A stretch of 33,772 nucleotides of DNA from Pirellulales bacterium (GTDB lineage Bacteria > Planctomycetota > Planctomycetia > Pirellulales > S012-138). The stretch is from positions 1 to 33,772 of the forward strand of contig JALCBR010000052.1 of NCBI GenBank assembly GCA_028066245.1. Direction: 5' to 3'. The translations under genes and the position numbers were made by a program. A model generated the notes under the pieces. The model had not been told where the DNA came from and did not search any database. It saw only the letters and a list, made by a program, of their open reading frames with translations. This document shows, piece after piece, positions 2,610 through 31,924 of the stretch (its first letter is position 1; each line of letters begins with the position of its first letter).

Positions 2610-4183
2610 GCCGCCACCTCCAACCGACGCCTCATGGCCAACGAAGCGAAGTAGTCGAGGTTGTCGAACTGATAGGTATCGAGATAAGCGCCGTTTTCTT
2701 CACAGAGGAGTAGTCGTGGCGACTCGATGTCCATAATTGGCAGCAGATAGTAGTCCGCCGGGACGCTGTTGCTGCTGTCCATACGCGCCAAGATCGTGAT
2801 GTCGGGCGCGAGCGCCGTGTCGAAGCGGGCTTGCCAGCGCAGCGCTCCGCCAGGCGTCTTGCGGCAACGAGACAACACGACCGAGGCGCTATACTCCCCG
2901 TTGATCATCAAATACCCAGTGCCCGAGTCTTCTGAGACTGATGCCCCCACCGCCTGCAGCCGCCGCTGCACATCGCTGACCATGGTGGGCCACTTTTCGC
3001 GAAGACGACGATTAGTTTCCACATACTCGTAATTGCGGTCGGGCATGCAGTCCGCCCGACGATAGGCCGTCAGCAGGCTCCCAAACCGAGAGCGAAACGT
3101 CGCGGCGGGCGGTAATCCGTCGGCCGCATCGATCGCGGCGGCAGAAATCGCCTCGCTGCGCTGGGCCAATCGCTTCAACATGTCGATCAGCTCGTCTTCG
3201 GTGTACCTGCGGTTTCGTTCTTGAACAATTCCACGCGCCGTATAGAACAGCTCGTCACTCACGACGGCCTGAAAGGCGCCGTCTTTGCGCACCCACATAT
3301 CCGGGGCGTTGAGGACATGCTTTTTCTTGAGCTTGAAGGACGTGCGGTTGTAGACGTTGTTGCCGATATACTTTTCGTTGGTGAGTATTTGGCGTACCGT
3401 GCCCCGATTCCATTCCCGTCCTAGATCTGTCTTGACACCTCGTTGGTTGAGTTCGCTGGCGATCTCGCCTTCCTGCTTTCCTTGATTGACGAATTGGTCG
3501 TACATCCAGCGAACCGTCGCTACTTCCTCTTCGGGGCCGGGCACGAGGATCACCCGATCGGTTTGCAGGCTCTTCTGTTGGCCGCGATCGAGCGTGCCTT
3601 TTTCTTGACCCGTTTGATCGATCAACATCCGGCGGAGGCCAAATCCTGGTGCACCCCCTTGCCGATAGCCGAGTTCGATCAACCGGCACTGTCCTTGGAA
3701 CACCTTCGACGACAACTCCCGGCTATACTCACCGGCCATCGCGCGCTTGACACTCTTGATAATCGTGGACGTGGGGCCGCCGTCGTTTTCGAACTGTTCG
3801 GCGCAATAGTGCACCGCGATGCCCGCCTGCTTGCAGAGGTATTCGTAGTAGGCGCTTTCGTCGGCGTCCTGAAAGCGTCTCCAACGGCTCACGTCGTAAA
3901 CGAGAATCACGCTGTAATCGGTCGCTCCACAGGTCACGTCAGCGATCAACCGCTTCAGCGAATCTCGCCCCGCCACGCTCAATCCACTCTTTCCCTCGTC
4001 CGCGTATGTTCGCACGATTTCGAATCCGCGCTTTGCTGCATAGGAATGGATAATGTCTTCCTGGTTGGCTGTTGAGTACTGCTGATGCTCGGTCGACATG
4101 CGGACGTACTGCGCTGCGCGGACTAGTGGACCTCGCGCGTCGGCAGCGGCGGACGTAGCGGGGGTGGAATCGTGTGTCGGCAT
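2606..4183 (-). CDS. Large serine recombinase / resolvase family
   Basis: This is a site-specific recombinase of the large serine class (525 aa from the chosen start). The N-terminal resolvase domain begins at RAAQYVRMSTEHQQYS, with the catalytic serine near residue 30. It continues through YADEGKSGLSVAGR and VYDVSRWRRFQD. The Recombinase domain (GGAPGFGLRR, LNQRGVKTDLGREWNRGTVRQILTNEKYIG) follows, and then a long C-terminal region. I prefer the ATG at 4183, preceded by CAGGAACAACGT with an AGGA at good distance. An in-frame start at 4213 adds ten residues that do not look family-like. It is coupled to the RepB-like gene downstream. An orphan winged-helix regulator lies upstream, with phased GGTTTGA boxes between them. 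No attachment site could be identified. Confidence 0.88.
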   Translation of the reverse strand: MPTHDSTPATSAAADARGPLVRAAQYVRMSTEHQQYSTANQEDIIHSYAAKRGFEIVRTYADEGKSGLSVAGRDSLKRLIADVTCGATDYSVILVYDVSRWRRFQDADESAYYEYLCKQAGIAVHYCAEQFENDGGPTSTIIKSVKRAMAGEYSRELSSKVFQGQCRLIELGYRQGGAPGFGLRRMLIDQTGQEKGTLDRGQQKSLQTDRVILVPGPEEEVATVRWMYDQFVNQGKQEGEIASELNQRGVKTDLGREWNRGTVRQILTNEKYIGNNVYNRTSFKLKKKHVLNAPDMWVRKDGAFQAVVSDELFYTARGIVQERNRRYTEDELIDMLKRLAQRSEAISAAAIDAADGLPPAATFRSRFGSLLTAYRRADCMPDRNYEYVETNRRLREKWPTMVSDVQRRLQAVGASVSEDSGTGYLMINGEYSASVVLSRCRKTPGGALRWQARFDTALAPDITILARMDSSNSVPADYYLLPIMDIESPRLLLCEENGAYLDTYQFDNLDYFASLAMRRRLEVAA

Positions 4184-4989: not shown

Positions 4990-5892
4990 CTAATAGAGCT
5001 GAACGCCTCCATCGATGCGGTGACGGACCTCTTCCAAAGCCAGCAGCAACGCTTGCTCCACTTCGTGGTAGTTGCTACCAGTCCCACGGACGACGACATG
5101 CCAGCTATGAGAAGCGGCGAAGCTGAGTTTATGAGTTTTTGTCTTTCGTGTGCGTGATCGTCGCTGCTGCTGAACTTTCTGAGCGATGTCCTGATGCGTC
5201 AGCCGTTTTGCTGCTGCTTGCTGTGCCAGTCTCTGCTGCTGGTCAGGGTCCTCAATACGAGAAATCTCATACGCCGTGCGAGGAGCGATCTGTTCGGATT
5301 CGACCAGCGTCTGGATTTCTTCCGGCAGCCGCAGCAGCGCCAACGATCGGGTCACCTTGGATTCGGGAACCGATAAGGCTCTGGCGACCTGCTTGCCGGT
5401 ATAACCGTGAATCTGCATCATCCGCTCAAACCCGCGTGCTTCTTCCAGTGGTTTGAGATTCTCACGCAGCAGATTCTCGATCATCTGCGCCTGCAGCACT
5501 TCGCCCTCCGACAGTTCTCTTTCGTGGCAGAAGCAGTCAATAGCCGGGAGTCCCGCCAGTTTCGCCGCCCGCCAGCGACGCTCCCCGGCGACAATGAGCC
5601 ATTTGCCGGCAGGCTCCGACCAGCGGACACGGATCGGTGCGAGTTGCCCCGCATCTCGGAGGCTGTTTGCCAACCGCTCGATCGCCTCCTCTGAGAATTC
5701 CGTCCGTGGTTGATCAGGGTCGGGAAGAATCTGATCGGTCTGGATGCTTCCATATTCTTGAAGTGGTCGGCGGCCCACGTCGCGGAGCTGAGCGACCGGG
5801 CTGAGCCGGACGTCGGCCACGCCTGTCCGTTCGCCCATCGACTCCGACAAGTTCTGTTCGACAAGTTCGAGCGTGCTACGTGTCGAAGCCAT
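4990..5892 (-). CDS. parB: ParB partition protein, module A
   Basis: This 300-aa ParB/Spo0J-family protein would bind centromere sites of the plasmid and stimulate the ParA ATPase. Visible blocks are the N-terminal LPDPDQPRTEFSEEAIERLANSLR (about 56-80), the CTP-binding-type motif GERRWRAAKLAG (about 103-114), and MIENLLRENLKPLEEARGFERM (about 136-157). The helix-turn-helix GKQVARALSVPESKVTRSLALL and the basic linker QQQRRSRTRKTKTHK follow. Its ATG overlaps the parA stop by one base (TGATG), indicating one operon. A homologue of identical length, with the same N-terminus MASTRSTL, is encoded at 19584-20486 but is clearly diverged. Confidence 0.9.
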   Translation of the reverse strand: MASTRSTLELVEQNLSESMGERTGVADVRLSPVAQLRDVGRRPLQEYGSIQTDQILPDPDQPRTEFSEEAIERLANSLRDAGQLAPIRVRWSEPAGKWLIVAGERRWRAAKLAGLPAIDCFCHERELSEGEVLQAQMIENLLRENLKPLEEARGFERMMQIHGYTGKQVARALSVPESKVTRSLALLRLPEEIQTLVESEQIAPRTAYEISRIEDPDQQQRLAQQAAAKRLTHQDIAQKVQQQRRSRTRKTKTHKLSFAASHSWHVVVRGTGSNYHEVEQALLLALEEVRHRIDGGVQLY

Positions 5893-6698
5893 CAGGCTAC
5901 CCGCTGGTCGCGTTCGGTTTCGTCGCGCCGACGAATCAACTCATGCCCCAACTCGGCTGTCATCAGTGCCGCTTTGGACCGAGGGCTGGAGTGGGTGACC
6001 GGCTGCCGGCAAGAAAGCGCTACCTTGAACGCTGACGCCTCGGGGATAATGGTCGTCAACACCTGCCCGACGTAAAGCTTCCGTAGTTTCTGCTCGTAAG
6101 CTCGGTGGACCAAGAGCCGGCCGTCGTAGCGCGTCACGACGTGACCCAACAGCTTGAGTTTGGGGTTGAGGATCTGCGCGCTGGTGATCGCCTGGTGTAC
6201 TGCCCGCAAGCCCTGCGTGCCAAAATCCTCAGGAGGCACCGGCACCAACACATAGTCCGCCGCCAGTAGCGCGTTCCAGCTGCAGGCGAAGAGGTTCGGC
6301 GGGCAATCGATTAACACGACATCGTAGTCTGGCAATCCTGCGAGCAACGAATCGAGCCGATATTGGGCCAGTCCCTGCATCTCTGGTTCTGGAACGTTGA
6401 ATCGAGCCAGGTGTTGATTCGCGGGCACTAGCTCAACACGTTCAATCGATGTCTTAATCGGCGAGCAGGAGCCTGCGGTCGTTGCGCTGGTAAGAAATGC
6501 ACTCGCGAGAGTCTGATGCGGCTTCAGCGTCTCTACAAACTGGGAGCCGAAGAATCCTTGACTGAGCGACCCTTGCGGGTCGGCGTCGACGAGCAGGACC
6601 TCAAGACCTTGTTGAGAGAAGTGGCCCGCCAGATGGAAGCAGGTAGAGCTTTTGCCGCAGCCTCCCTTCTGGTTGATCATGCAGATGGTTGTTGCCAA
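5892..6698 (-). CDS. parA: ParA partition ATPase, module A
   Basis: This ParA/Soj-type ATPase drives plasmid segregation together with ParB. The deviant Walker A motif is MINQKGGCGKSSTC near the N-terminus. Walker A' lies in LLVDADPQGSLSQGFFG, and Walker B in YDVVLIDCPPNLFACSWNAL. The chosen start is a TTG at 6698 (LATTICMINQKGG), which aligns with the module B protein. The frame continues upstream to a TTG at 6743, but that would run through a conserved palindrome at 6730-6744. There is no N-terminal DNA-binding domain, so autoregulation would have to involve ParB or another factor. It is divergent from rep. Confidence 0.9.
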   Translation of the reverse strand: MATTICMINQKGGCGKSSTCFHLAGHFSQQGLEVLLVDADPQGSLSQGFFGSQFVETLKPHQTLASAFLTSATTAGSCSPIKTSIERVELVPANQHLARFNVPEPEMQGLAQYRLDSLLAGLPDYDVVLIDCPPNLFACSWNALLAADYVLVPVPPEDFGTQGLRAVHQAITSAQILNPKLKLLGHVVTRYDGRLLVHRAYEQKLRKLYVGQVLTTIIPEASAFKVALSCRQPVTHSSPRSKAALMTAELGHELIRRRDETERDQRVA

Positions 6699-6729
6699 GC
6701 GCTCACCGTTGTTGACTGTGGTCAGTCCG

Positions 6730-6744
6730 ATTGCCACTGGCAAT
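6730..6744. promoter_or_regulatory. Conserved palindrome ATTGCCACTGGCAAT (module A)
   Basis: A 15-bp perfect palindrome (ATTGCCA-C-TGGCAAT) lies 31 bp upstream of the chosen parA start. The same palindrome with G at the centre occurs twice upstream of parA in module B (21322-21336 and 21458-21472). A half-site ATTGCCA lies at 6878-6884, near the rep start. The conserved location suggests an operator or a parS-type ParB site shared by both modules. Confidence 0.55.
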
Positions 6745-6893
6745 TCCTCGCTAACCGCTGGTTATCCTTACCGATACGTTGCCACGATTTGCCTGGAGGC
6801 GTCAACGAAAATTCCGTCTCAGGCAAGTTTTCGCTTTCGGGATTCCCGCGCCGCTGCTACGGGAGTTGAAAGAAGCAATTGCCATCTTTGACG

Positions 6894-8249
6894 ATGCCGC
6901 CACGAAACCGACTAAATACAGAGCAAACTGCCCTCTCTGCCGGCCTGAGCCAACTCTCGCTCGTCGAGCACGCGCTCTGCCCACTCGACACCCGCAAATC
7001 ACTGCAACAGGGGCTCGTTCACGAAAGCAGTTATCGCTACACAGACGCCAACGGCAAACGACAACTGGCCCAAGTCTGTATCGAGTGTCCACGAGGGCTA
7101 TCGGCGGCAGACGAGTTATATCTGTGGGGCCTGCTGGCTCTGACACTGGCTGAGGAGCAACCCTCGTTCGACTTCTACGCAACGCCACATTACTGCCTCC
7201 GGCAGCTGGGCGTTGTGGGGCCGAAGTCCAAGGGCGGCAAAAACTATCGGCTGTTCCGCGAATCGCTACGGCGATTGGCGGCGGTTTGCTACCAGAGCGA
7301 TCACTTCTACGACCCGGTGCGCAAAGAGCACCGTCGTGTCGACTTCGGGATGCTGAGCTATAGCCTGCCACTCCGCGATGATTCTTCTCGCGCTTGGCGG
7401 ATCGTATGGGACCCGGTCTTCTTCGAGTTTTGTCAGGCTTCGGGGGGACGGCTGCGATTCGATCTGGATGTCTACCGTCGACTCGACCCGGCCAGCAGGC
7501 GACTCTTGCTATTGCTGACCAAGGTGTTTTGGCGGCGAAGGTATTCGCCCTGGTTCGACGTGCGGGAACTTGCTGTACAGGTACTCGGCGTGGCTGATAC
7601 CTTGCCTACGAAGCGGCTCAAGGAGAAAGTCGAACGATGCGCCAGCGTGCTCGCCAAACATCAGGTGATAACGATGACTGAAAACAGAGATCTCTTTATC
7701 CGGCGAAAGCAGGGAGTGTTTGCGGTGCGTTTCGAGCGCGGACCTCGGGGTCAGCAGCAAGGTAGCGCAAGTAGCATGAATGTGGAATCGCCGTTGTGGG
7801 GACCTTTGCAGTCGATTGGGCTCGACCGCCAGGCGATCCGGCGGACTTTGAATCAATACCCGCACCAACTCGTGCGGAGATGGTCGGACGTCACGCTAGC
7901 TGCGATGGAACGCAAAGGGAACGGGTTCTTTCGCAAGAGTCCGGCGGCCCATTTCGTAGACAACCTCAAGGCAGCTAGCCGAGGCGAGCGGGGATTGCCC
8001 GACTGGTTTCTCGATCTCCAGAAACAGGAGCAAGCCCGCTTCGCCGAACGGGCTAGAAAGGTACAGCGCCGACCTGCCGGCGAATCACCCACTCGGGTGA
8101 CAACACCAGGACGCGCATTCCCGCTCAGGCTTTCACGGTCCGCGACGATCTCGGAGATGACGGCCCAGTTCATCGCGGCGGGTCAAAGCGAAGCCGACGC
8201 AAAGAAGAACGCGCACCGATTCGCAGCGGCGATGGTTGTAAAAGAGTAA
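6894..8249 (+). CDS. Plasmid replication initiator, module A
   Basis: This protein (451 aa from the ATG at 6894; a TTG at 6879 is also possible) resembles RepA-like plasmid initiators found with ParAB in planctomycetes. Landmarks are LSLVEHALCPLD near residue 20, the hydrophobic ELYLWGLLALTL, SRAWRIVWDPVFFEF, and the DNA-binding-like region YRRLDPASRRLLLLLTKVF. The C-terminal ~130 residues are basic and carry WGPLQSIGLDRQAIRRTL and HQLVRRWSDVTLAAMERKG. The protein is expected to bind the iterons that start 165 bp after its stop codon. It is homologous along its length to the protein at 21635-22882. The role is inferred from the rep-par-iteron context and general resemblance. Confidence 0.8.
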   Translation: MPPRNRLNTEQTALSAGLSQLSLVEHALCPLDTRKSLQQGLVHESSYRYTDANGKRQLAQVCIECPRGLSAADELYLWGLLALTLAEEQPSFDFYATPHYCLRQLGVVGPKSKGGKNYRLFRESLRRLAAVCYQSDHFYDPVRKEHRRVDFGMLSYSLPLRDDSSRAWRIVWDPVFFEFCQASGGRLRFDLDVYRRLDPASRRLLLLLTKVFWRRRYSPWFDVRELAVQVLGVADTLPTKRLKEKVERCASVLAKHQVITMTENRDLFIRRKQGVFAVRFERGPRGQQQGSASSMNVESPLWGPLQSIGLDRQAIRRTLNQYPHQLVRRWSDVTLAAMERKGNGFFRKSPAAHFVDNLKAASRGERGLPDWFLDLQKQEQARFAERARKVQRRPAGESPTRVTTPGRAFPLRLSRSATISEMTAQFIAAGQSEADAKKNAHRFAAAMVVKE

Positions 8250-8299
8250 CTGCTGCACACTCTAACTCGACCTTCTTCTCCGCAGCCTCTTTGATTACA

Positions 8300-8322
8300 A
8301 GGTACTTGAAGCAGGTACTTTG
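8300..8322. repeat. GGTACTT tandem repeat after rep A
   Basis: GGTACTT occurs twice 15 bp apart, about 50 bp after the rep stop, with the second copy running into TGAGG. Module B has a closely similar element at 22924-22950, at nearly the same distance from its rep stop (AAGTACTTTG and GTACTTTGGGG). Conservation of both sequence and position suggests an origin component or a regulatory element rather than chance. Confidence 0.4.
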
Positions 8323-8363
8323 AGGGCTGCGTGCCGCGCTGTTTGGAACCGCCGAAAACAACC

Positions 8364-8499
8364 GCAAGTCCGCCGAGGTACGAGCTTGGTCGGCGTGAAG
8401 ACGCTAGTGTTCGGGTCCCGGCAAGTCCACCTCCACTAGAGCATGAGGTCCCAGCGAGTCCACCCTTTAGCGTCTTGGGAAGGTCCCACCAAGTCCACC
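8364..8499. repeat. Iteron array, probable oriV of module A
   Basis: Three 18-bp direct repeats of GGTCCCNNCRAGTCCACC lie at 8414-8431, 8447-8464 and 8482-8499, with starts 33 and 35 bp apart. A partial copy (GCAAGTCCGCC) lies at 8364-8374. Location directly after an initiator gene, and spacing near three helical turns, fit an iteron-type replication origin. Module B has three iterons of different sequence with exactly the same 33/35 spacing. Confidence 0.75.
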
Positions 8500-8502
8500 T
8501 GC

Positions 8503-8832
8503 TTACGCGGCAGCACTCGGGGCTTCTGCACCGTTGCGAGCCTGCGCGCTGACATTCGCGTGCAACTCGTGTTCACGGATGAATCGGCTCGCCTCGGCGA
8601 TCACCTCGACCAGCGCCTCTTCATTGTTCTCGAAGAAGTTCTGTGAGTAGCCTTCTTTTTCGCCGCTCTTGAGCTTCCAGCTGCGGCTCAGCGAGAAGTC
8701 GAGATACTCAAAACCAGTGGGGGTTTGCCGTCTCCAGATGCTCGCCGCGATCGCGCCGACGCGGATGACCTTCAGCGGCTTCTGGTTGCGTTGGTCGCTT
8801 GATTTCGCTTTGGAATTTGCGTTGTCGTTCAT
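8503..8832 (-). CDS. Small conserved hypothetical protein next to oriV A
   Basis: This is a 109-aa soluble protein with a basic N-terminus (MNDNANSKAKSSDQRNQK). The compact middle contains KVIRVGAIAASIWRR, GFEYLDFSLSRSWK and GYSQNFFENNEE, and an acidic/Ala-rich helical C-terminus follows. I recognise this pattern as a small family found near planctomycete mobile or plasmid genes but know no function for it. The gene converges on rep, and its stop codon falls 3 bp beyond the last iteron, so the origin sits between two gene 3' ends. In module B the convergent gene at this place is an unrelated exonuclease. Confidence 0.7.
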   Translation of the reverse strand: MNDNANSKAKSSDQRNQKPLKVIRVGAIAASIWRRQTPTGFEYLDFSLSRSWKLKSGEKEGYSQNFFENNEEALVEVIAEASRFIREHELHANVSAQARNGAEAPSAAA

Positions 8833-9140
8833 CGTCGTATTCCTCCATCTCTGAGGTCAGTTTCTATTCTTGAGGAGTCGACTACCACAACTTGGAGAAA
8901 ACCGCAAAGTACGCTAACGAACCTGACTATCGGGGCTTCTCCGGCTTCGATGGTCGTTGGCTCATGCCGAAGCGCAGCCGTCTGAATCGTCGCCAGTCAT
9001 AAAGCGGCGGATAAGGGCGGTGTGCTGACGTCTCTTGACGGGGACAGCAGATCCGGGAATCTCGGTCTCATCAACCGGGGATAAGGATCGGAGGCTTGCC
9101 AGCCTCCCGGTGTTCGCAAGAGCACTCGTGCTGACCCTTC

Positions 9141-9174
9141 GAGCTGAGTGCCATGAGAGTGGCTCGCTCAGTTC
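9141..9174 (+). ncRNA. Group II intron domain V, copy A
   Basis: This 34-nt hairpin has the canonical length of domain V. It starts with GAGC (AGC catalytic triad) and ends with GTTC. The 8-bp lower helix GAGCTGAG/CTCAGTTC contains the typical G-U in the triad. A TCG segment on the 3' side supplies the 2-nt CG bulge. The upper helix GCCAT/GTGGC is capped by a GAGA (GNRA) tetraloop. The position normally occupied by a U-A pair beside the bulge is U-U here. Confidence 0.93.
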
Positions 9175-9274
9175 AATGGAGGCTCGTTGGAGTAAACTCC
9201 GCACGCGGCGCAAACTCTCGTTGTCAGAGAGAAGCGATCCGCTCCACGGAAACAATCCCAGCGTTCTATCCAAT
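9175..9274 (+). ncRNA. Group II intron domain VI and 3' splice site, copy A
   Basis: The helix pairs TGGAGG with the segment ending TCTATCCA, and CTCGTTGG with CCAGCG, enclosing a variable internal loop. In copy B one pair has changed from T-A to C-G. The adenosine at 9268 is bulged and lies 7 nt from the predicted intron end AT at 9274. This matches the branch-point geometry and the terminal AY of group II introns. Domain VI is longer than usual because its distal end carries an extra hairpin. Confidence 0.78.
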
Positions 9275-10565
9275 TGAGTTTGTCGAGCCCGCTTTGCCGT
9301 TGGCGAGGAGTCCGGGCGTTGACTAATCTTGGGCGCGATGACGCTCAAGCGAAGACGGGCGATGCGGACAAACCTTGCTCCGTTCCAATTGAACGATTCA
9401 AGGCCGTGTCGGTGACGCGAGCGTCTTTTGCTCGTGTCTGCGTTGGCACGCAAGCGTGACAATGCACAAAGCGGGTGCAAATCCCGTCCGTGGGGTTCGT
9501 GGCTTGCCTGCTTTGGCAGGTGAGTTCGTTCAACGCGGCTGGCGTGGGGAGTTTTGAGTCTGGCGACAGGCCAAACCGGAGTCGACCGCTCCGGGGATCG
9601 GGTTAACGGCCCGACCATGAAAAGCTCAACCATGAAAGGCGCAACCGAATACGTGAGGGAGCGCTTGCCAGTGAGATTCTGAGGAGACGGAGCCGAACCG
9701 CGAATATCCGTGCGGGGCTCGGTACCCCGAGCTTCTGGTTTCGTAGGGGGAAATCCGGCAGCATTGTTGTCGGTAAAGTAGGACTGGTCGGAAGGCCTCA
9801 CCTACCCACACGGACCGGGTGGTAACACACCCTAGCCACGTGACCTCAGAATCGAAGACCGACACTAACACAGGAACCACTGCGGCCTCCGGGTTTGGCA
9901 ACTCGGCGCCTCGTTTGGTCAACGAGGTAGTAGTAGCACGCGCGTCGTGCGAAACGCCGTAGTGGGGGAGAGTGGCCTGAGTAGAACGAGAACGGAAGTT
10001 CTCACGGAGGTCTGGGCGAAGGTTCAGACATGATTTCCCTGGGGAAATTGTGCGCGGCAAGGCAGTCGCGACCCGTCGACGTTGACCTGGGAGTGATGCC
10101 CCAGCGAGTCGGAACGAAAGGGCTGAGGGGTAAACGCGTTGCCATGCGCAACCGAAGCCCCCGTCAAGAGATGTTTGGTCGGCGCAGTCTTGCGCCGGCA
10201 AATTGCCTGGCTGGCAGCGATGCGGCTAGAGGTGGCTGTTCGGAAGAGCAGCTTCCTCTGGCGGCAGACTGACGACCGACGCTACCCGTGCGTTCTTCGC
10301 AGGGACAAGCGTCGGGCGAAGGTTTTGATCTGCGGGCACTATGAATTGGGCGTGTGCACTGACGAAACCAGTGCCGAATACGCCTATCGTGCCCGCTCGC
10401 GGGAGCAGCTGTCTGCGTCGCGGCGAGGATGGCCTTTGTCTGGTCGTCTCACTTGCGCACGCTATGATTGTTCTGTTGCCAGTAAGGATCTTCAAAACGG
10501 CATTCGTGGGATTGGCCGCAACCTAATCCCACACCCATTACGAACGAGCAACGAAGCGGAGGCCC

Positions 10566-11261
10566 ATGCAGTATCGGTGCGTCGCGTCATCCCCTGAAGG
10601 ACTCGTGCAGCAAGTCGCTGTGAGCTACCTGCGACACGGGTACTGGTACTACGTCACCGGTAGGATTCCGTCCCACAAAGATCCCGCTGTGGTTGATCGG
10701 AAGATCCTCGATAAGTACCAGGTCGCCATCAGCGAACGCGAGCGCTGTCGTCGCAAACGCCGCGGCCTGGCGAACCTACAATACATCCGCTACGGGAGTT
10801 GGTTCATTATCTTGGCGACCGATGGTCATCACCCGGTCAAGCAGCAGGAGCGTAGCCAGATCAAAGATTGTCGCCGTGTTCCTATCAAGTTCGAGGGCTA
10901 CTCGATCAGTTATCGTCGCAGCGGTGTAACGCCCAAGGGGGGAGGACCTCCGAAGTGGCACGCCTGCGTGCGGATCGACCAAGAGACCTACCGCGACCTG
11001 AAGGCATTTTTTCTTGAGCGAGCATGTCACCGGTCGATCGAGAACCTGGCAAGAGATTTTGCAAAAGTGCCCTATGCGCGATATGCACCTGTTCGCCGGC
11101 AACTGCTTGCTTTACTTCGGCAGGTAAACACAGCACGGGCGCGAACCGGTTTCCAGCCCGTGCCAACATCTGCTCTACGACTTCGTCGCAAGATAGTGAA
11201 GCCATTCGCCGGTGTCGAACCTGCAGTCTGGAGCGATCGCACGATGGCCAAAGCGACTTGA
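10566..11261 (+). CDS. Basic protein encoded downstream of the permuted intron, copy A
   Basis: This 231-aa, strongly basic protein is of unknown function. Its sequence is closely similar to the 216-aa protein at 25441-26091. Shared blocks include MQYRCVASSPEGLVQQVAVS at the N-terminus, RRKRRGLANLQYIRYGSWF near residue 65, IKFEGYSISYRR near 115, and YARYAPVRRQLL near 180. The last homologous residues are LRRKIVKPFA, after which this copy has ~15 extra residues, probably from loss of the ancestral stop. There are no reverse-transcriptase, LAGLIDADG or HNH motifs. The start is fixed by conservation and by GCGGAGG just upstream (only 3 nt from the ATG). A covarying hairpin of the RNA (10506-10532) lies directly before it. 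The gene occupies the position equivalent to domain IV, so an RNA-binding or splicing-helper role is plausible but unproven. Confidence 0.85.
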   Translation: MQYRCVASSPEGLVQQVAVSYLRHGYWYYVTGRIPSHKDPAVVDRKILDKYQVAISERERCRRKRRGLANLQYIRYGSWFIILATDGHHPVKQQERSQIKDCRRVPIKFEGYSISYRRSGVTPKGGGPPKWHACVRIDQETYRDLKAFFLERACHRSIENLARDFAKVPYARYAPVRRQLLALLRQVNTARARTGFQPVPTSALRLRRKIVKPFAGVEPAVWSDRTMAKAT

Positions 11262-11491
11262 GCTGATCCTGTCGCGCTTCACTATTTTCGTCTCGTCGCG
11301 TAAGATTGACTTACCGCGGTGCACGGCGCCCGATGTGGGCCCGGCGGTCGAGCTTTATGCTCGTTGCCTTCGATTCGCGTTCAAGCGGCCCGTGATCAGG
11401 ACTACCGTCGGCCATTGGCGGGCAGAGGGTAGCCACCGAATAGAGGCAGGTTGAGCCTGCGGGAATAAGGTGGTCCGGGTCGCTTACGCCT

Positions 11492-11960: not shown

Positions 11961-12968
11961 CTAGATCGAAATCCGCTCGACGATGTTCCGGGTTACCTGA
12001 CGCTTGCGGCGGTCGTAGAGTCGAGTGGTCCGAGGGTCGGCGTGCCCGGCTAGATTTTGCACGTCTTCCAGCGGGACACCTTGGCTCAACAGATCGGTAA
12101 TTGTCGCCACGCGGAAGGAATGCGCCGTGAGCCTCGCCGGCAAACCCGCGTCGCGCATTCTTCTGCGGACCATGCGGCCAATGTCATCGCCCGTCATCGG
12201 GTTAGACGTCAGGCACCGGGTTCTTATTCGCGTGGTGCGGAAGAGCGGGGAGTCGAGTGGCATGGGGGAATCAGCGGCATAACTCGCCAGCAGCGCATCC
12301 CGGTAGCTGGCTAACAGGACGTGCAGGTCATGCCGCACCGGGATCTCTCTCGGCTTGCCCCCTTTTTCTTGGAAAGCGAGACAGTGTTGGTCTCCCATGT
12401 CGTAGTAGTCACCGAGCCGGAGACCCGCCACCGCGCCGACTCGCGCGGCAGTGTAGATAAGAATTGCGATGATCGACTTGTCCCGCAGGCCAACCAGATG
12501 CGACGTGTCGATGCTGGCCAGCAGTCGGCGGGCCTGATCGGGCGTGATCTCCGGGGTTCGCCCTTCGAGAACTTCCAGCCGCTCGCCCCGAACACTCGCC
12601 GCCGGATTCAAGATCACCGCATGACGCTGCACGAGCAGGTCGAACAGATGGCGAATCGCCGCCAGATAGACTTTTTTTGAAGAGGCTGCAGCGGGGAGCG
12701 CGTCGAGATAGCGACCGACATCCGATGGTGCAACACGCTCCAGCATCAATCCACGACTGGAACACCAATCGGCGAACCTGCACGTCGCGCGGGTGTAGCT
12801 GCGGCGGGTGTGGGGATTGCGGACAGCGGCGTAAACGAACTCATCCCAAGCAAACCTTGCCGCAGGAGTGGACTGCAAGATCAGCCGTGGCGGGGCGATT
12901 TCGCACTGGATTGGTGACTCGCTATCAACGACCACTGCTACCTGGTTTGTCGTTGGCTCGTTAGGCAT
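11961..12968 (-). CDS. Tyrosine recombinase / integrase
   Basis: This phage-type integrase would cut and rejoin DNA at specific sites through a tyrosine nucleophile. An N-terminal SAM-like core-binding domain (NPHTRRSYTRATCRFADWC) precedes a catalytic domain. The catalytic domain shows the first Arg in TAARVGAVAGLRLGD, the Lys in EKGGKPREIPV, HSFR, LAGHADPRTTRLYDRR with the second His, and the terminal Tyr. The ATG at 12968 (MPNEPTTNQ) is preferred. An in-frame TTG at 13043 would add 25 poorly family-like residues. It is not of the IntI class. It lies in the segment between the two replicon modules and could have mediated their fusion, which is inference. Confidence 0.88.
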   Translation of the reverse strand: MPNEPTTNQVAVVVDSESPIQCEIAPPRLILQSTPAARFAWDEFVYAAVRNPHTRRSYTRATCRFADWCSSRGLMLERVAPSDVGRYLDALPAAASSKKVYLAAIRHLFDLLVQRHAVILNPAASVRGERLEVLEGRTPEITPDQARRLLASIDTSHLVGLRDKSIIAILIYTAARVGAVAGLRLGDYYDMGDQHCLAFQEKGGKPREIPVRHDLHVLLASYRDALLASYAADSPMPLDSPLFRTTRIRTRCLTSNPMTGDDIGRMVRRRMRDAGLPARLTAHSFRVATITDLLSQGVPLEDVQNLAGHADPRTTRLYDRRKRQVTRNIVERISI

Positions 12969-13119
12969 GTACCCCGTTGTTGAAGTCGGCGCGATCGGTT
13001 TCTTGAGGGGCCGTCTGCTTGAATCACGCCATGGCCTTGGCAAACAGAAATCTTGTCAAGACGTTTCTTACTCGCCAACACTTCAGTGCCGCAGGCACTT
13101 GATGCCGTTGATTCATTCA

Positions 13120-14635: not shown

Positions 14636-15982
14636 ATGTTCGAGAAGCTTGCGAAAGAGGCCGTGCATTTGGAGCGGTACCGGACTGGCCCGTATGCGGA
14701 TGAACGGCGGCGATTTCTTGCGTATCTCACGGAGAGGGGATTGGGACGTAGTCGATTGGAGGGCATCAATCGTCTGCTGCTGAGTGTCGCCCGGCACATC
14801 TGCCTCGACGGCGATGCGAAGTATTCGGCCCGCCAACTGGCGTCCCTTGCGAAGGACTGGATTCGCAACGAGCCGAAGCACGGAGGTTCTCAGAAGTCCA
14901 TCCGCTCCCGAGAGCTGGACTTCCTGTTCGTAGCGAAGCAATGGCTGAGCTATTTGAAACGCCTCGACACAAGCGAGCCACCAAGACCGTTTGATCGCGA
15001 GTTGTCGCAGTTCCTCTCGCACCTCCGCACGGAGTGCGGATTCGCCGAGGCCACGATTGAGAACCGTCGAAACAGCCTGGCGCTGTTCTTCGGTTGGCTG
15101 AGCGAACGGGGTCAGACCTTGTCGGAAGTGGGGCTCGATGAGATTGGCGATTACCAGAAAGCGTGCGGACAACGAGGCTGGAAGCGGACGACGCTCTCCC
15201 TTCATGTGCAGGCGTTGCGGGCGTTCTTTCGATATGCCGCCTCACAGGGCTGGGCACACGACATCGCACCGGGCATCGGAGCGCCGAGACTCTATTCGCT
15301 CGAATCGATCCCCGAAGGTCCCAGTCGGGACGACGTTCGAAGCCTGCTGAGCAACGAATCCGGCAATTCACCCGTCCAGATCCGCAACCGGGCCATGCTG
15401 TTGCTGTTTGCCATCTATGGCTTCCGATTGAGTGAGGTACGCCACCTGCGATTGGAGGACGTGGACTGGGAGAATGAGCGGATCATGTTGCACCGAACGA
15501 AAGTGCGGAAGGCGCAGGAATACCCGCTGGTGCGCGAGGTCGGAGAGGCGATTCTTTGCTACCTGAAGGACGTTCGGCCACAGTCAAGTCATCGCGTGCT
15601 GTTCCTGACATTACGGCAGCCCCATCGGCCGTTGAGTCGCGGGGGTCTGAGCGCCATGGTTCAGAAGCGGATGCGGGCTGTAAATCCCCGGCTGACGCAC
15701 AGCGGGCCACATGCGCTGCGGCATGCCTGCGCAACGCACCTCCTCGCCCGAGGATTGACCCTCAAGGAAATCGGCGATCACCTGGGCCATGTCTCGGTGG
15801 CAGCCACGAGGATGTATGCCAAGGTCGACATCCTCGCCCTGCGGAAAGTTGCTGCGTTAGATATGTCCGAACTGGTTGCGTATGCACAGCGGGCGGACGA
15901 AAGTCAAACTCCCATCATTGCGTGTGGCGATCTTGCGGGTCTGCGGGAGGTCGCCAAGCTCCATCTGGGAGTTGTCCTGTGA
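14636..15982 (+). CDS. RIT tyrosine recombinase A
   Basis: This 448-aa recombinase has an extended N-terminus, a SAM-like core-binding domain (GFAEATIENRRNSLALFFGW) and a full catalytic set. That set comprises Arg in YGFRLSEVRHLRLEDV, Lys in TKVRKAQEYPLV, HALRHACATHLL, LGHVS and the nucleophile in TRMYAKVD. It is the first gene of the trio. Its stop overlaps the GTG start of the second (GTGA at 15979-15982), implying coupled translation and probably a complex of the three proteins. The ATG at 14636 is the first in frame after the left inverted repeat. Confidence 0.9.
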   Translation: MFEKLAKEAVHLERYRTGPYADERRRFLAYLTERGLGRSRLEGINRLLLSVARHICLDGDAKYSARQLASLAKDWIRNEPKHGGSQKSIRSRELDFLFVAKQWLSYLKRLDTSEPPRPFDRELSQFLSHLRTECGFAEATIENRRNSLALFFGWLSERGQTLSEVGLDEIGDYQKACGQRGWKRTTLSLHVQALRAFFRYAASQGWAHDIAPGIGAPRLYSLESIPEGPSRDDVRSLLSNESGNSPVQIRNRAMLLLFAIYGFRLSEVRHLRLEDVDWENERIMLHRTKVRKAQEYPLVREVGEAILCYLKDVRPQSSHRVLFLTLRQPHRPLSRGGLSAMVQKRMRAVNPRLTHSGPHALRHACATHLLARGLTLKEIGDHLGHVSVAATRMYAKVDILALRKVAALDMSELVAYAQRADESQTPIIACGDLAGLREVAKLHLGVVL

Positions 15983-16923
15983 CGCTGGGAGAACTCATCG
16001 ACGAGTACGTCGACTACAAACGCTCATTGGGGATGTACTTCCGCAGTCCGGCGGTACGCCTGAAAGCCTTTCTGGCCGCGGTCGGCGATGTCAAACTGGA
16101 TGCGATCACACCGCAACAGGTGCGGAGCCATCTCGACGGAACACCGGGGCCCATCACCAGTTTTTGGTTCGCCAAGTATCAGGCGCTGCGCCCATTCTTC
16201 GCTTACGCGATCGATCGCAACTATCTGCAATCGTGCCCTCTGCCGAAGGTTCTCCCCAGCAAGCCGCCGAAATTCGATCCGTACATTTACACGGTCGCCG
16301 AAGTGAAGCGTCTTCTGGATGCTGCCGACTCCAGGCACCAATCGGACTGGCTGCTTGATCCGCAAACCGCCCGGACACTGATTCTCCTGCTGTATGGGAC
16401 CGGCCTGCGCATCGGGGAGGCCACGCGGCTGAAGCTGAGCGACGTCGACCTGAATGACCAGATTCTGACGGTGAGGGAAACCAAGTTCTTCAAGTCGCGG
16501 TTGGTGCCGATCGGAGATGATCTGGCAATGGCACTTCGCAGCTACCACGCCTATCAGTGGGGTTCATGGACTCCCACTGACGAATCGACATTTCTCTCAT
16601 GCCGAGCGCGCCAGCCGATCAAGCACCAGACGGCACGACTGGTCTTCTATCGGATGCGCACGGAGGCCAACGTTCGCCGTGAAGAGACCGCCAGATACCA
16701 GCCAAGGCTTCACGACTTCCGTCACACCTTCGCCGTCACTCGGCTGGTGACCTGGTATCGGGAAGGCAAGAACGTCCAGCGTCTGCTGCCGCACCTCTCC
16801 ACCTACCTTGGTCATGCGCGTCTTCAGGAAACGACGCGATACTTGAACATGACGAAAGAACTCTTGCAGGAAGCCAGCCAGTGCTTCCTGCAGTACGCGC
16901 TGCCGGAGACGCCCGATGAATGA
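15979..16923 (+). CDS. RIT tyrosine recombinase B
   Basis: This 314-aa recombinase starts at a GTG overlapping the stop of gene A. The frame is open far upstream, but that part is a shadow of gene A. Residues 1-100 form the core-binding domain (VTLGELIDEYVDYKRSLGM). The catalytic domain has YGTGLRIGEATRLKLSD, ETKFFKSRLVPI with the Lys, HDFRHTFAV, YLGHARLQETTRYL with the second His and the Tyr. It overlaps gene C by 8 bp. All catalytic residues appear present, so all three members of the trio could be active. Confidence 0.9.
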   Translation: MTLGELIDEYVDYKRSLGMYFRSPAVRLKAFLAAVGDVKLDAITPQQVRSHLDGTPGPITSFWFAKYQALRPFFAYAIDRNYLQSCPLPKVLPSKPPKFDPYIYTVAEVKRLLDAADSRHQSDWLLDPQTARTLILLLYGTGLRIGEATRLKLSDVDLNDQILTVRETKFFKSRLVPIGDDLAMALRSYHAYQWGSWTPTDESTFLSCRARQPIKHQTARLVFYRMRTEANVRREETARYQPRLHDFRHTFAVTRLVTWYREGKNVQRLLPHLSTYLGHARLQETTRYLNMTKELLQEASQCFLQYALPETPDE

Positions 16924-17914
16924 CGCGATACTCGGTACGTGGATGCGGCGGTTCCTGGTGGAGCATCTGATCGCCGAACGCAACCTCTCGCGAAATACCC
17001 AGCGGAGCTACCGCGACACATTCTGCCTGCTCGTCCCCTTCGTTTCGAAACTCCAGAGGAAGCCGAACGATCGATTGTTAGTGGAAGATGTCACCGGCGA
17101 TTGTGTGCGCAACTTCCTGGGGCACTTGGAATCCGAGCGCAGTTGCAGCGTTCGGACACGAAATCAGCGGCTGGCCGCGCTCCATGCGTTCGCGCGATTC
17201 GTGGGTGATCACAATCCCGAACTCGTTCCGTGGTGCCGGGAAGTTCGCCTGGTGCCGTTCAAACGTGCGGACAAGAACCCGTTGTCCTATCTCGAAAAGA
17301 AGGAGATGGATGCCATCCTGGCATCGGCCAACTTGGCCACGAAACAAGGTCGGCGCGATCATGCCGTTCTCCTGTTCCTGTATAACTCGGGTGCCCGCGC
17401 GAGTGAGGTAGTGGGCGTCACCATCGGTGACATCGAGCAAGACCTGAGCGGCTCAGGAACGGTGACGCTCCGTGGCAAAGGCGGCAAGTCACGATTCTGT
17501 CCGCTGTGGGAGAAGACGATGGGCGAGCTGGCACCACTGATGCAGCAGCGCCCGTCGACCGAGCATCTCTTCCTCAATCGTTACGGGAGGCCGCTGTCAC
17601 GATTTGGGCTTCGCGATATTGTTCGCCGGCATGCGCACCTAGCAGAAGCGACTGCCCCCTCCCTGGCCAGAAAACGCGTCAGCCCCCACACCATCCGGCA
17701 CACCACCGCCACACATCTGCTTCGATCCGGTGTTGACATCAATACAATTCGCGCCTGGTTGGGCCACGTCTCCCTTGAGACGACGAACATCTACGCTGAG
17801 ATCGACCTGGAAGCGAAAGCCAAAGCGCTGGCGGCATGCGAGCTGGAAGATGTCAAGCCGGCGAAGCCGTGGCGCGACGATCCCACCCTGATGGCGTTCC
17901 TCAAGTCACTCTGA
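16916..17914 (+). CDS. RIT tyrosine recombinase C
   Basis: The 332-aa third recombinase is the most XerC/D-like of the trio. It has an N-terminal LVEHLIAERNLSRNTQRSYR core-binding domain, YNSGARASEVVGVTIGD, RGKGGKSRFCPL with the Lys, HTIRHTTATHLL, LGHVSLETTNIYAEID with the nucleophilic Tyr. The ATG lies within the last codons of gene B. The C-terminal tail (KPAKPWRDDPTLMAFLKSL) reaches almost to the right inverted repeat. About 35 bp later a small hairpin, GGCTG/CAGCC, may end transcription. Confidence 0.9.
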   Translation: MNDAILGTWMRRFLVEHLIAERNLSRNTQRSYRDTFCLLVPFVSKLQRKPNDRLLVEDVTGDCVRNFLGHLESERSCSVRTRNQRLAALHAFARFVGDHNPELVPWCREVRLVPFKRADKNPLSYLEKKEMDAILASANLATKQGRRDHAVLLFLYNSGARASEVVGVTIGDIEQDLSGSGTVTLRGKGGKSRFCPLWEKTMGELAPLMQQRPSTEHLFLNRYGRPLSRFGLRDIVRRHAHLAEATAPSLARKRVSPHTIRHTTATHLLRSGVDINTIRAWLGHVSLETTNIYAEIDLEAKAKALAACELEDVKPAKPWRDDPTLMAFLKSL

Positions 17915-19583: not shown

Positions 19584-20486
19584 TCAGTAGCGGATGTTGC
19601 TCTTGATGCGAAGTCGGACTTCGTCAAGGGCTTGTTCGAGGGCCTCTTCGAGATGGTGGTATGTGCCCTCTTGTGGCCCTTTGACCAAGACTTCCCAGCC
19701 GTTTTCTGCCCGAAACGAAAGCGTTTTCGTTTGTGGCTGGTTCTTGGGCTTACCGCGCCGCTTACGTACGGCGCTTGCAGCCTGTGTGTGGGTCATGCCA
19801 CCGTTGGCCGCTTGTGACGCCAACTTGCGGCGAGCGTTTTCGTCGGGGAGCTTGCTCACTTCGTAGGCCGTCCGAGCCGAAAGCTCGCCGTTGTGCACGC
19901 GCTGTTGGACATCCTGCGGCAAGTCGAGCAACGCCAGCGCTCGGCTGACGGTGGACGGGGTGATGTGTAGCGCCTCGGCTAATTGTCTTCCGTTCCAGTC
20001 ATTCAACTCCATCAGTGAGGAGAATGCGCGCGCCTGCTCGATTGGCTGCAGGTCTTCGCGAAGCAGGTTTTCGACCAGTTGTTGTTCCAGGATCTCCGAT
20101 TCGGACAGCTCACCGTCGTGGAAGAAACAGTCGACAGTTGCCAGGCCAGCGGCCTTTGCGGCTCGCCAGCGGCGTTCGCCGGAAACAATCATCCATTGCT
20201 GCTGGTCCTCCGACCAACGCACGCGAATCGGGAACAACTGCTTTGTGTCTTGCAGGCTCCGGGCAAGCCGGTCAAGCGACTCTGGGGTGATCTCCTTTCT
20301 CGGCTGCTTCGGGTCCGGCGTCAGCAAGTCGACAGGAATCTGTCCAAAACTACGCAGCGGTTTGCGGCCGATGTCCTTGGGGGAAGGAACGGGGCTCAAC
20401 TGAGGTCGATGGTCAACGGTGCGGATGCCCATTGACTCATTCAGATTTGCCGAAATCTCTTGAAGTGTGCTCCTGGTACTGGCCAT
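19584..20486 (-). CDS. parB: ParB partition protein, module B
   Basis: This 300-aa ParB/Spo0J-family protein has the same length and N-terminus (MASTRSTL) as the module A protein but is substantially diverged. The blocks are TPDPKQPRKEITPESLDRLARSLQ, SGERRWRAAKAAG, LVENLLREDLQPIEQARAF, a helix-turn-helix NGRQLAEALHITPSTVSRALALL and a basic linker RKRRGKPKNQPQTK. Its ATG overlaps the parA stop by one base (TAATG), as in module A. Similar proteins with a shared palindromic site in both modules raise the question of cross-talk between the two partition systems. Confidence 0.9.
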   Translation of the reverse strand: MASTRSTLQEISANLNESMGIRTVDHRPQLSPVPSPKDIGRKPLRSFGQIPVDLLTPDPKQPRKEITPESLDRLARSLQDTKQLFPIRVRWSEDQQQWMIVSGERRWRAAKAAGLATVDCFFHDGELSESEILEQQLVENLLREDLQPIEQARAFSSLMELNDWNGRQLAEALHITPSTVSRALALLDLPQDVQQRVHNGELSARTAYEVSKLPDENARRKLASQAANGGMTHTQAASAVRKRRGKPKNQPQTKTLSFRAENGWEVLVKGPQEGTYHHLEEALEQALDEVRLRIKSNIRY

Positions 20487-21301
20487 TACGCGACGTGTCG
20501 TTGTCCGTTTCTCACACTGATGCGGTCGAGAATCTCACGACTCAGCCGGGCTGTCAAATCGCTGGCAGGCGACTTGGGGCTATGGTGCTGAATTGGCTTG
20601 CGACAGGCCACGGCGACTTTGAATGCCGAAGCCTCGGGAATGACCGTATCCAGGACCATGTCGCCGTAAAGCTCGCGCAGACGCTGCTCATAGGCGCGGT
20701 GGATGAGCAAGCGACGGTCAGAGCGGGTTACCAGGTGGCCCAGACAATACACCCTGGGGTTTAGCACGTGGGCGTTCTGAATCGCCTGATGAACCGCCCG
20801 CAAGCCCTGCGTTCCAAAATCTTCCGGTGGCGCAGGAATGATGACCCAATGGGCAGCGATCATCGCCGCCCAGCTGCAACGGTACAGATTCGGCGGGCAG
20901 TCAATCAGGATGATGTCGAACGCTCGCTGTCGACCCGTAAACTCCGCGAGAGCGTGCTGCGACAATCCCGTCGTTTCCGGCCCGGGTGTGTTGAGGGGCC
21001 CGGCGTGATGGTTGCACGGGCAGATCGAGATACGGTCAAACACCGTGGGACGGATCAATCGCTCATCATTCACGAGAAGGTCGCTGCCTTCACCCAGCAG
21101 CGCCGCTACGGTTTGCTCGACCGGCAGAGATTCGACCAGCTCGGAGCCGAAGAACCCGCGGCTGAGCGAGCCTTGGGGATCCGTATCGATGAGCAGCACG
21201 TTCAGGCCGGCTTGGGCAAAAGCGCCGGCCAGATGAAAGCACGTTGAGGACTTGCCGCAACCTCCTTTTTGGTTGATGAGACAGATCGTCGCTGGCCGCA
21301 T
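20486..21301 (-). CDS. parA: ParA partition ATPase, module B
   Basis: This is a ParA/Soj ATPase of about 271 aa, starting at the ATG at 21301 (MRPATICLINQKGGCGKSS) with CGAGGATTC upstream. Frames further upstream cross a regulatory palindrome and lack a ribosome site. It carries the deviant Walker A KGGCGKSS, LLIDTDPQGSLSRGFFG and FDIILIDCPPNLYRCSWAAM. The C-terminal segment (VIPEASAFKVAVACRKPIQHHSPKS) matches module A closely. It is divergent from rep, as in module A. Confidence 0.92.
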   Translation of the reverse strand: MRPATICLINQKGGCGKSSTCFHLAGAFAQAGLNVLLIDTDPQGSLSRGFFGSELVESLPVEQTVAALLGEGSDLLVNDERLIRPTVFDRISICPCNHHAGPLNTPGPETTGLSQHALAEFTGRQRAFDIILIDCPPNLYRCSWAAMIAAHWVIIPAPPEDFGTQGLRAVHQAIQNAHVLNPRVYCLGHLVTRSDRRLLIHRAYEQRLRELYGDMVLDTVIPEASAFKVAVACRKPIQHHSPKSPASDLTARLSREILDRISVRNGQRHVA

Positions 21302-21634
21302 GAATCCTCGTGGATGAAGGAATTGCCAGTGGCAATTCCGCGTAACTCTCCGAAATCGTTTCCGATACCGTGGCACAAGCCTTGAAAGGTCGTCAAGGAT
21401 TTTTGTGGGCAAGCCGCGGGTACCCGGGATTGCTGGCGGGTGGAGTCTCGTATTGCGATTGCCAGTGGCAATTCTGTGCAAGTCCCGGGAACTTCAGGTG
21501 AATTTGGTGGCTTTGGAACGGAAGGTGGTCTCTTGGGTTTTTCCTGTTCTGGATCGTCCATACGTGTTACGTGAAATGTAGTTTAACGCAATTAAAGTCG
21601 TTGACCGTTGAAACGCGACATCCATTCTCCGGCC
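21302..21634. promoter_or_regulatory. parA-rep divergent control region, module B
   Basis: This 333-bp gene-free region holds two identical palindromes ATTGCCAGTGGCAAT at 21322-21336 and 21458-21472, 136 bp apart. A hairpin CCTTGA/TCAAGG followed by TTTTT near 21383-21408 could act as a weak terminator or attenuator. TACGTG is repeated near 21560. The palindrome nearest parA lies 20 bp before its start codon, where it could control that promoter. Confidence 0.5.
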
Positions 21635-22882
21635 ATGTTGAATGGTACGGGGCAGCTCACGCTTGTCGAGCATTCTCTCTGTCCACTCGACCCGCGCGCA
21701 TCGCTGGTTAAGAACCTCGTCCACCACACGCAGTATCAGTTCAGCTCTCCGGACAAAAAACGGCAGACATCGCACGTACAAGTATTCTGCCCGCTCGGAC
21801 TCACGGCGACGGATGAGTTCTTTCTCTGGGGCCTTTTGGCGCTCACGATGCAGCAGCGACCTGAGGATCGGGCAGAGTTGCGTGCCACGCCACACTGGTG
21901 CCTCCGCCGGCTGGCGATCATAGACGAGCTCTCGCGGCGGGGCGGCCGGCAGTATCGCCAATTTCGCGACACAGTTCGCCGGTTGTCCACAGTCGCTTAC
22001 GTCAGTGACGAATTCTACGATCCTGTTCGAGGTGAGCACCGGGAGATCGCTTTTGGATTCTTCAAACACTCCCTGCCGAAGGGCGAGCAATCCAAACGCG
22101 CCTGGCGAATCGTCTGGGATCCGCTGTTCATGGAAATGGTCCAGCCGGCGGCGGGCCAGCTACGGTTTGACCTGCATACCTACCGGCAACTCGATCCGGC
22201 GAGTCGCCGGCTGTTTCTGTTTCTTTCCAAAGTGTTTCCCCGAAAGAGTCTATTGGCGTCGCTCGATTTGACGCACTTGGCTGTCAATCTCCTGGGGTTT
22301 TCCGAAACGCTGAATCGGCGCGTGCAGAAAGCCAAGGTCAAACGGTGCTTTGACCGGCTCCAGCGTCTGGACGTGGTCTCTCGAGCTGAGTTCACAAAGA
22401 GCGGCAGAGGCAGCTACCGAATTCGTGTCGAGCCGGGTGGGTATTTCAACAAGAAGCAAGGGAGGATTGTCATGACAGAGTTCGATGAATTGCCACTGTG
22501 GGATACGCTGCTGCAAATTGGCTTTGAGCCAGCCGCTGCGGCGCGGCTGATGAAACGCTATTCGCACCGGCTGCTGGAAGAGTGGGCCGATATCACACAA
22601 GCCGCTCAGGAACGGTTTGGAGCCTCCTTCTTTCACGCGAGCCCAATGGCATTTTTGGTCGATTCGGTGAAGCATGCCGCTCGCGGGCGCCGTACACCAC
22701 CAGACTGGTGGCTGGAGCTCAAACGACAAGAGGCTGCCAAAGAACAACTGGACCAACAAAGCCAGCAGTTCCTGGCCCGCGTTCGCTGTCATGTGTTCGG
22801 CCCGTCCGTCGACGACGAATCCACGCGGGTCCAGTCCGGTCCCGGGCTGTCGAGCGCGGCAGATGTGCTCCGAAACGGGTAA
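21635..22882 (+). CDS. Plasmid replication initiator, module B
   Basis: This protein (415 aa from the ATG at 21635; a TTG at 21608 is possible) is homologous to the module A initiator. Shared landmarks in order are LTLVEHSLCPLDPR, DEFFLWGLLALTM, ATPHWCLRRLAI, YDPVRGEHREIAFGFF, KRAWRIVWDPLF and YRQLDPASRRLFLFLSKVF. The middle basic segment SETLNRRVQKAKVKRCFDRL and the C-terminal LWDTLLQIGFEPAAAARLM also align. The protein should recognise the iterons at 23039-23126. Sequence divergence between the two initiators is matched by different iteron sequences, as expected for two compatible replicons. Confidence 0.8.
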   Translation: MLNGTGQLTLVEHSLCPLDPRASLVKNLVHHTQYQFSSPDKKRQTSHVQVFCPLGLTATDEFFLWGLLALTMQQRPEDRAELRATPHWCLRRLAIIDELSRRGGRQYRQFRDTVRRLSTVAYVSDEFYDPVRGEHREIAFGFFKHSLPKGEQSKRAWRIVWDPLFMEMVQPAAGQLRFDLHTYRQLDPASRRLFLFLSKVFPRKSLLASLDLTHLAVNLLGFSETLNRRVQKAKVKRCFDRLQRLDVVSRAEFTKSGRGSYRIRVEPGGYFNKKQGRIVMTEFDELPLWDTLLQIGFEPAAAARLMKRYSHRLLEEWADITQAAQERFGASFFHASPMAFLVDSVKHAARGRRTPPDWWLELKRQEAAKEQLDQQSQQFLARVRCHVFGPSVDDESTRVQSGPGLSSAADVLRNG

Positions 22883-23811: not shown

Positions 23812-24072
23812 GTCAAAGAGCTCTCGAAATCATTACGACAGGATGACTTTTCCGTTGGTACTGGTAAGGTTCGTGTCATAGGCGAGTGACTCCGCTCGCC
23901 GGTCGTCATGCTCATGCACAACGCATTCGTTCGAAACTCGGTGCGCCATAAAGCCGGGCATAAGGGCGATTGAGCTGATGTCTCCTGGCGGGGACAGCGG
24001 GTCCAGGAATCTTGGTCTCATCAACCGAGGATAAGGATCAGGAGTTGCCAACTCCTCTCGCGCTGGCCCTTC

Positions 24073-24107
24073 GAGCTGAGTTGCCATGAGAGTGGCTCGC
24101 TCAGTTC
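24073..24107 (+). ncRNA. Group II intron domain V, copy B
   Basis: This hairpin is identical to copy A except for one extra T at the base of the upper helix (35 nt). It has GAGC at the start, GTTC at the end, the lower helix GAGCTGAG/CTCAGTTC, and a GAGA tetraloop on GCCAT/GTGGC. Confidence 0.92.
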
Positions 24108-24200
24108 AATGGAGGCTCGTCGGAGTAATCCCGATGATTGCACGCTTCCTTTGTCTGGAAGAAGCAATCTGTTCGGCGTAATCCCGGCGTTCTATCCAAT
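24108..24200 (+). ncRNA. Group II intron domain VI and 3' splice site, copy B
   Basis: The basal helix TGGAGG/TCTATCCA matches copy A, and the helix CGTCGG/CCGGCG has a compensatory C-G in place of T-A. The bulged adenosine at 24194 lies 7 nt from the predicted intron end AT at 24200. The distal hairpin differs in sequence from copy A (TTCC/GGAA within TTGC/GCAA). Confidence 0.78.
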
Positions 24201-28049: not shown

Positions 28050-28244
28050 TTTGCCGGATGTGGGCAGTGCGAGAATTCCTCGCTAAGATACTCGCAGAGT
28101 CTGACTTCTGACTGCAGTTGGATTGTCCACCGCCGATGGTTTCAGAAAAGCAGTTTACCCCAAACCCAGACGCCATTCGCTCCCGTTGTAGGTGGAATCA
28201 CTTCCGCCTCCGGATTTTTCACATGCGCTGAAGGATCAGGCCAA

Positions 28245-30743: not shown

Positions 30744-30764
30744 CGCGAGGACAATTGGACAGAT

Positions 30765-31916: not shown

Positions 31917-31924
31917 TGCCACAG

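Follow-up and report, generated by a model that had tools for sequence, protein, structure and literature searches.

The window analysed here is a 33,772-nucleotide stretch of DNA from a Pirellulales bacterium (assembly GCA_028066245.1, contig JALCBR010000052.1). It contains two copies of a conserved RNA, each upstream of a gene that we assign by profile comparison to the AcpG family, all on the forward strand. The following features were placed in copy A, whose RNA runs from 9021 to ~10374.

9061–9079 (+): P2 hairpin, conserved 5' of domain V in 69 RNAs; in its loop (9067–9073, CTCATCA), positions 9069–9073 pair with the D2 loop and covary with 10094–10098
9141–9174 (+): domain V (D5), 34 nt, with AGC triad, GAGA tetraloop and UC bulge (Rfam match, homologue alignment, covariation)
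9177–9272 (+): domain VI (D6), with branch-point A9268 and the 3' splice site after U9274 (covariation, invariant A, terminal AT)
9275–9356 (+): linker between the splice sites, the predicted 82-nt RNA circle, with IBS1 at 9351–9356 (circularisation by analogy with Roth et al., 2021)
9357–10374 (+): D1-D2-D3(-D4) body, opening with the 5' splice site motif GGGCGAUGCGGA (GGGCGA, conservation profile; limit of 10374 from similarity between copies A and B)
9737–9742 (+): EBS1 loop GGTTTC, partner of IBS1 (covariation test)
10094–10098 (+): D2 terminal loop TGATG, in a pseudoknot with the P2 loop (covariation with the P2 loop)
10114–10130 (+): conserved purine-rich segment ACGAAAGGGCUGAGGGG (conservation profile), from its position probably J2/3
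10566–11261 (+): acpG, 231 aa, AcpG family; predicted fold of a group II intron reverse transcriptase (RT) palm and thumb, catalytic aspartates absent

The RNA of copy B occupies 23971–25243.

24071–24200 (+): D5-D6 (covariance model, 116.5 bits)
24201–24235 (+): predicted 35-nt circle (splice-site alignment)
24236–25243 (+): D1-D3 body (copy comparison, splice-site alignment)
25441–26091 (+): acpG of copy B, 216 aa, 75% identical to that of copy A (sequence comparison)

Each copy follows one of two similar ParB-ParA-Rep-like modules (4990–8249 and 19584–22882), in agreement with the near-origin site of the related RNA on plasmid pPNAP05, and the window resembles two fused plasmid-type replicons or an integrated element. 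Among the related loci described below, the 4-kb flanks contain a relative of the Rep-like gene of the window in 24 cases and ParA in 13. A small reverse-strand ORF between the Rep gene and the RNA of copy A (8503–8832) matches SSB weakly and has relatives in seven loci. Pattern scans of 8250–11400 for promoters and terminators gave nothing above chance. Elsewhere in the window are three consecutive tyrosine recombinase-like genes that resemble recombinase trios (14636–17914), with a fourth integrase nearby on the opposite strand (11961–13043); a gene group resembling DNA phosphorothioation (26094–33744), which includes a dnd-related methyltransferase (TIGR04096), a DndA/NifS-like cysteine desulfurase, a PAPS reductase-like protein and a large ORF of unknown family (27768–30743); and an S8 peptidase (92–1696) with partial similarity, under the family cut-off, to the anti-phage peptidase IteS.

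A covariance model of D5-D6 recovers known permuted ribozymes

Positions 9139–9274 match Rfam family RF00029 with a score of 39.9 bits (E 7e-6), narrowly under the gathering score of 40, and no Rfam family scores above its own threshold anywhere in the window. D5 has the length, the GAGC...GUUC ends and the GAGA loop described in a first-pass annotation of this DNA. That annotation had read the bulge as CG; the consensus fold gives U9164-C9165 instead, which matches the "UN" bulge of the circularly permuted (CP) group II class of Roth et al. (2021; PMC8637638). Across 32 homologues, 97.6% of cells in the D5-D6 structure pair, compared with 76% for shuffled sequences, and 210 cells are altered on both sides, compared with 60. 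Compensatory changes abound in the D6 helix, whose outermost pair is found as C-G, U-A, G-C and A-U in homologues. The bulged A9268, which lies seven nucleotides from the terminal AU (9273–9274) as had been proposed, is invariant in the 32-sequence alignment, as is U9164.

Relatives were collected with the ORF at 10566–11261 as bait; a first profile, of 11 proteins, proved too diverse for scanning. Of the 294 genomes of the phylum, 7 encode relatives of the bait protein. Others lie on six plasmids from cyanobacteria and planctomycetes and in another 80 loci, most of these from Planctomycetota and a few from Thiocystis, Nitrospira, Acidobacteria and a Bdellovibrionales bin; viral contigs and phages yielded none. 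A covariance model of D5-D6, a check that the first-pass annotation had suggested, was built from 32 sequences that include no known class member. Its best match in the 59.8 kb of Polaromonas naphthalenivorans plasmid pPNAP05 (137–212, E 2.5e-6) is the CP RNA tested from that species, and GGGCGA stands 32 nt past the 3' splice site there; the published circle is 32 nt (Roth et al., 2021). On Thermus plasmid pTT8 the best match, though weak (E 0.018), falls in the right place. Within the host genome of the window, the model matches only copies A and B. Calothrix plasmid5 has two tandem matches on the same strand (1628–1731 and 3779–3873) upstream of a single acpG. Matches of 28–47 bits in the phylum scan were rejected as CP RNAs and left out of the counts. 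Those examined have no downstream GGGCGA, several of them with a YADD protein upstream, and on this basis we treated the matches as canonical introns, although some short loci were ambiguous.

Splice sites and long-range contacts are conserved by covariation

D6 ends in AT in 71/71 RNAs, and GGGCGA marks the 5' splice site in 67 of the 69 RNAs for which the pattern search found that site. In copy A it stands at 9357, placing the splice site at 9356/9357. Another candidate for this site, the GGGCG at 9314, was rejected because the alignment of 71 RNAs sets the conserved motif, GGGCGA[N]GCGGA, at 9357. Linker sequences diverge between relatives, whereas the splice motifs do not, and linker length is mostly 12–110 nt, with one of 163 nt; the linkers of 82 and 35 nt in the window both fall inside the range of circles in the published class. 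The last six nucleotides of the linker pair with a D1 loop, NNNTTC. When linkers were compared with their own D1, this EBS1-IBS1 contact gave 206 pairs in four positions; shuffled linkers gave 151.6 +/- 6.6, and none of 2000 shufflings exceeded 177. A second contact spans a greater distance: the P2 loop, 5' of D5, covaries with a hairpin loop ~1 kb downstream, in D2, as CACCA/TGGTG (26 RNAs), CATCA/TGATG (17) and, more rarely, TATCA/TGATA and TACCA/TGGTA.

The CP class, also called T-large RNAs, is defined by the order D5-D6-linker-D1-D2-D3, a bulged branch A, a 3' NU and 5' GGGCG, and circles of 15–86 nt; the P2-D2 loop-loop pseudoknot was named as unique to the class, whereas pseudoknots of P1 with the 3' end and of D3 with D1 are phylogenetically restricted (Roth et al., 2021). 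The RNA of the window shares with these RNAs the domain order (P2-D5-D6-linker-D1-D2-D3 in copy A), the UN bulge, the branch A, the splice motifs, the EBS-IBS and P2-D2 contacts, the linker length and a nearby AcpG gene. With its anatomy and covariation established, copy A is a CP group II ribozyme, and its membership of the published class, which is known but rare, is supported over the new subclass that had been offered as an option. The first-pass annotation had correctly stated that permuted group II RNAs making circles have been reported in bacteria, and its reversed domain order holds, with D1 and EBS1 coming after D6. Of the two findings that it had named as counting against it, a D6 helix lacking compensatory changes in homologues and a complete standard intron ending at 9274, neither was made. 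Its extent of 8952–10565 is corrected: the RNA begins at about 9021, and similarity between the two copies reaches 10374, with conservation across phyla stopping near 10140. The main text of Roth et al. (2021) lists Deinococcus-Thermus, Firmicutes and Proteobacteria; to these our set adds Planctomycetota, cyanobacterial plasmids, and single Nitrospira, Acidobacteria and Bdellovibrionales assemblies.

The partner gene belongs to the AcpG family and is linked to the RNA

The ORF downstream of copy A has GGAGG just 5' of its ATG. A BLASTP E-value of 0.05 had suggested a new protein unrelated to AcpG, a reading overturned by profile comparison and by a match on pPNAP05. The profile of the window protein is collinear with that of Thermus AcpG over 164 columns (hhalign probability 78%), and the AcpG HMM matches a hypothetical protein of pPNAP05 (57909–58718, E 8e-9) that adjoins the CP RNA across the record origin. 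Judged by these sequence profiles, the window partner protein is a member of the AcpG family, which Roth et al. (2021) left without function or relatives. As in the window, AcpG of Thermus plasmid pTT8 (TTHC007) has a CP RNA adjacent to it; unlike the profile search, BLASTP with the window protein did not detect it. Thermus members are ~260 aa and divergently oriented, whereas the loci read in this analysis have acpG downstream and on the same strand.

We measured the linkage in those 66 loci whose acpG is preceded by 1.7 kb of DNA or more. A CP RNA lies upstream on the same strand in 61 of them, including loci outside the training set of the model. In the flanks of the other five (L025, L034, L067, L083 and L085), no CP RNA was detectable, even with filters off; the acpG relative of L025 has an internal stop. 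In the phylum sample of 294 genomes, all seven genomes with acpG are among the eight with a strong RNA match, and the contig of the eighth ends ~400 nt past D6. AcpG is not universally required, because CP RNAs without acpG have been reported (Roth et al., 2021).

AcpG is predicted to adopt the fold of a degenerate group II RT

AlphaFold2 models of the window protein and of a Thiocystis protein are confident (pLDDT 90 and 95); they represent different lineages but are not fully independent, because their alignments share many sequences. In Foldseek searches of the PDB, the top ranks went to a retron RT (E 2.7e-4) together with a group II intron RT for one model and to three group II intron RTs for the other. 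VIA-align placed group II intron RTs at ranks 1–7 for both models, with Z reaching 9.8 (196 residues) and 9.6 (193 residues). The higher value is not far above the 7–8 typical for unmatched models, and palm folds are common. Residue 1 of AcpG aligns to RT residue 102–154, indicating that the RT0-RT2 finger region is absent. In the register of the hhalign profile alignment, the YADD turn is Y/H-G-R-x in AcpG; the second aspartate is absent in 78/78 AcpG sequences and the first in 71/78, being kept in the other seven. The hhalign match to group II intron-encoded proteins is in the expected register, but it falls short of significance (E 0.25; 11 of 118 shuffled profiles did as well), and we rejected it as proof. 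Weak Pfam matches, DUF4685 among them, were likewise dropped. Since the sequence match is not significant, the case for homology to RTs is made by the fold, the partner RNA and the gene linkage.

AcpG resembles group II intron RTs and maturases (8h2h, 8fli, 8t2s, 6me0) in a predicted palm and thumb that cover nearly the whole chain, and in having a group II partner RNA. It differs from them in lacking the fingers, the YADD aspartates and significant sequence similarity, and in being encoded outside the ribozyme. The RT-like domain of Prp8 is a further case of an RT fold that lacks catalytic aspartates and lies beside a group II-like RNA core. Its match to the first AcpG model (Z 7.9) is weaker than those of the group II RTs and tied with common palm folds, and it is absent from the rows of the second model. 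On these models, a maturase-like protein supplied in trans is the best explanation for AcpG. We think it reasonably likely that AcpG descended from a group II intron RT by loss of the fingers and the polymerase site, and now serves as a dedicated trans-acting maturase of the permuted ribozyme.

AcpG could instead be an unrelated RNA- or DNA-binding protein, such as a plasmid maintenance factor, whose palm-like fold arose by convergence beside what is still a CP ribozyme. In favour of this, RRM-like palms are widespread, Rep and ParA genes adjoin the module in many loci, and sequence similarity to RTs is not significant. We consider convergence unlikely: both models rank group II RTs, thumb included, above other right-hand polymerases, and the partner RNA is itself a group II RNA.

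Predicted reaction of the ribozyme

Other CP members react in vitro (Roth et al., 2021), and by analogy with the tested members the reaction of copy A would proceed in two steps. The 2'-OH of A9268 would attack the phosphate between C9356 and G9357, and the freed 3'-OH of C9356 would then attack the bond after U9274, closing nt 9275–9356 into an 82-nt circle. The second product would be a T-shaped branched RNA in which P1-P2-D5-D6 is linked 2'-5' to D1-D4, and which would also carry the acpG message if the two are co-transcribed. Because the model recovers tested class members, copy B is likewise predicted to release a circle, of nt 24201–24235 (35 nt). AcpG probably binds the ribozyme and stabilises its fold, as maturases do with canonical introns.

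It is improbable that the ribozyme is inactive or a relic whose transcript is nothing more than an acpG leader or a component of a plasmid replication region. In cells, expression but not processing of CP RNA was seen (Roth et al., 2021), and the RNA sits between the Rep gene and acpG in the window and near the origin on pPNAP05; however, the splice sites, branch A and the EBS1-IBS1 and P2-D2 pairings have all been maintained under compensatory change, and splice motifs persist while linkers diverge. There is next to no chance that a canonical group II intron ends at 9274, followed by an unrelated conserved RNA or a second intron: although D5 and D6 look canonical and match RF00029, no D1-D4 lies upstream of D5, D1 comes after D6, each locus has one strong D5-D6 (two on the Calothrix plasmid, L015) and none 3' of the body, and this reading is refuted because P2-D2 and IBS1-EBS1 covary across D5-D6, the P2-D2 pairing joining the 5' part and the 3' body in one molecule and thereby excluding an intron plus a separate RNA.

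Discussion

The explanation that we hold to be very likely is that each module combines a CP group II ribozyme with acpG, and that AcpG is a reduced, catalytically dead group II RT acting in trans as a maturase-like cofactor. We infer the maturase role of AcpG, and with it the biological purpose of the system. The one paper that we found on the class left two matters open: what AcpG does, and the seeming lack of any intron protein near CP ribozymes (Roth et al., 2021; PMC8637638). What is new here is the partner gene: on the structural models, AcpG is probably a shrunken group II RT-like protein that helps the RNA to fold. With a degenerate RT/maturase fold, AcpG acquires a testable role and a tie to the ancestry of the ribozyme. 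The ~70 RNAs with covarying splice-site contacts extend the class to Planctomycetota and cyanobacterial plasmids, and fix its splice sites.

If AcpG did descend from a group II intron RT in this way, it and its RNA would illustrate in bacteria the path that is usually suggested for Prp8 and the spliceosome, in which an RNA core and a degenerate RT become independent genes. The pair would then offer a simple bacterial parallel to Prp8 and the spliceosome.
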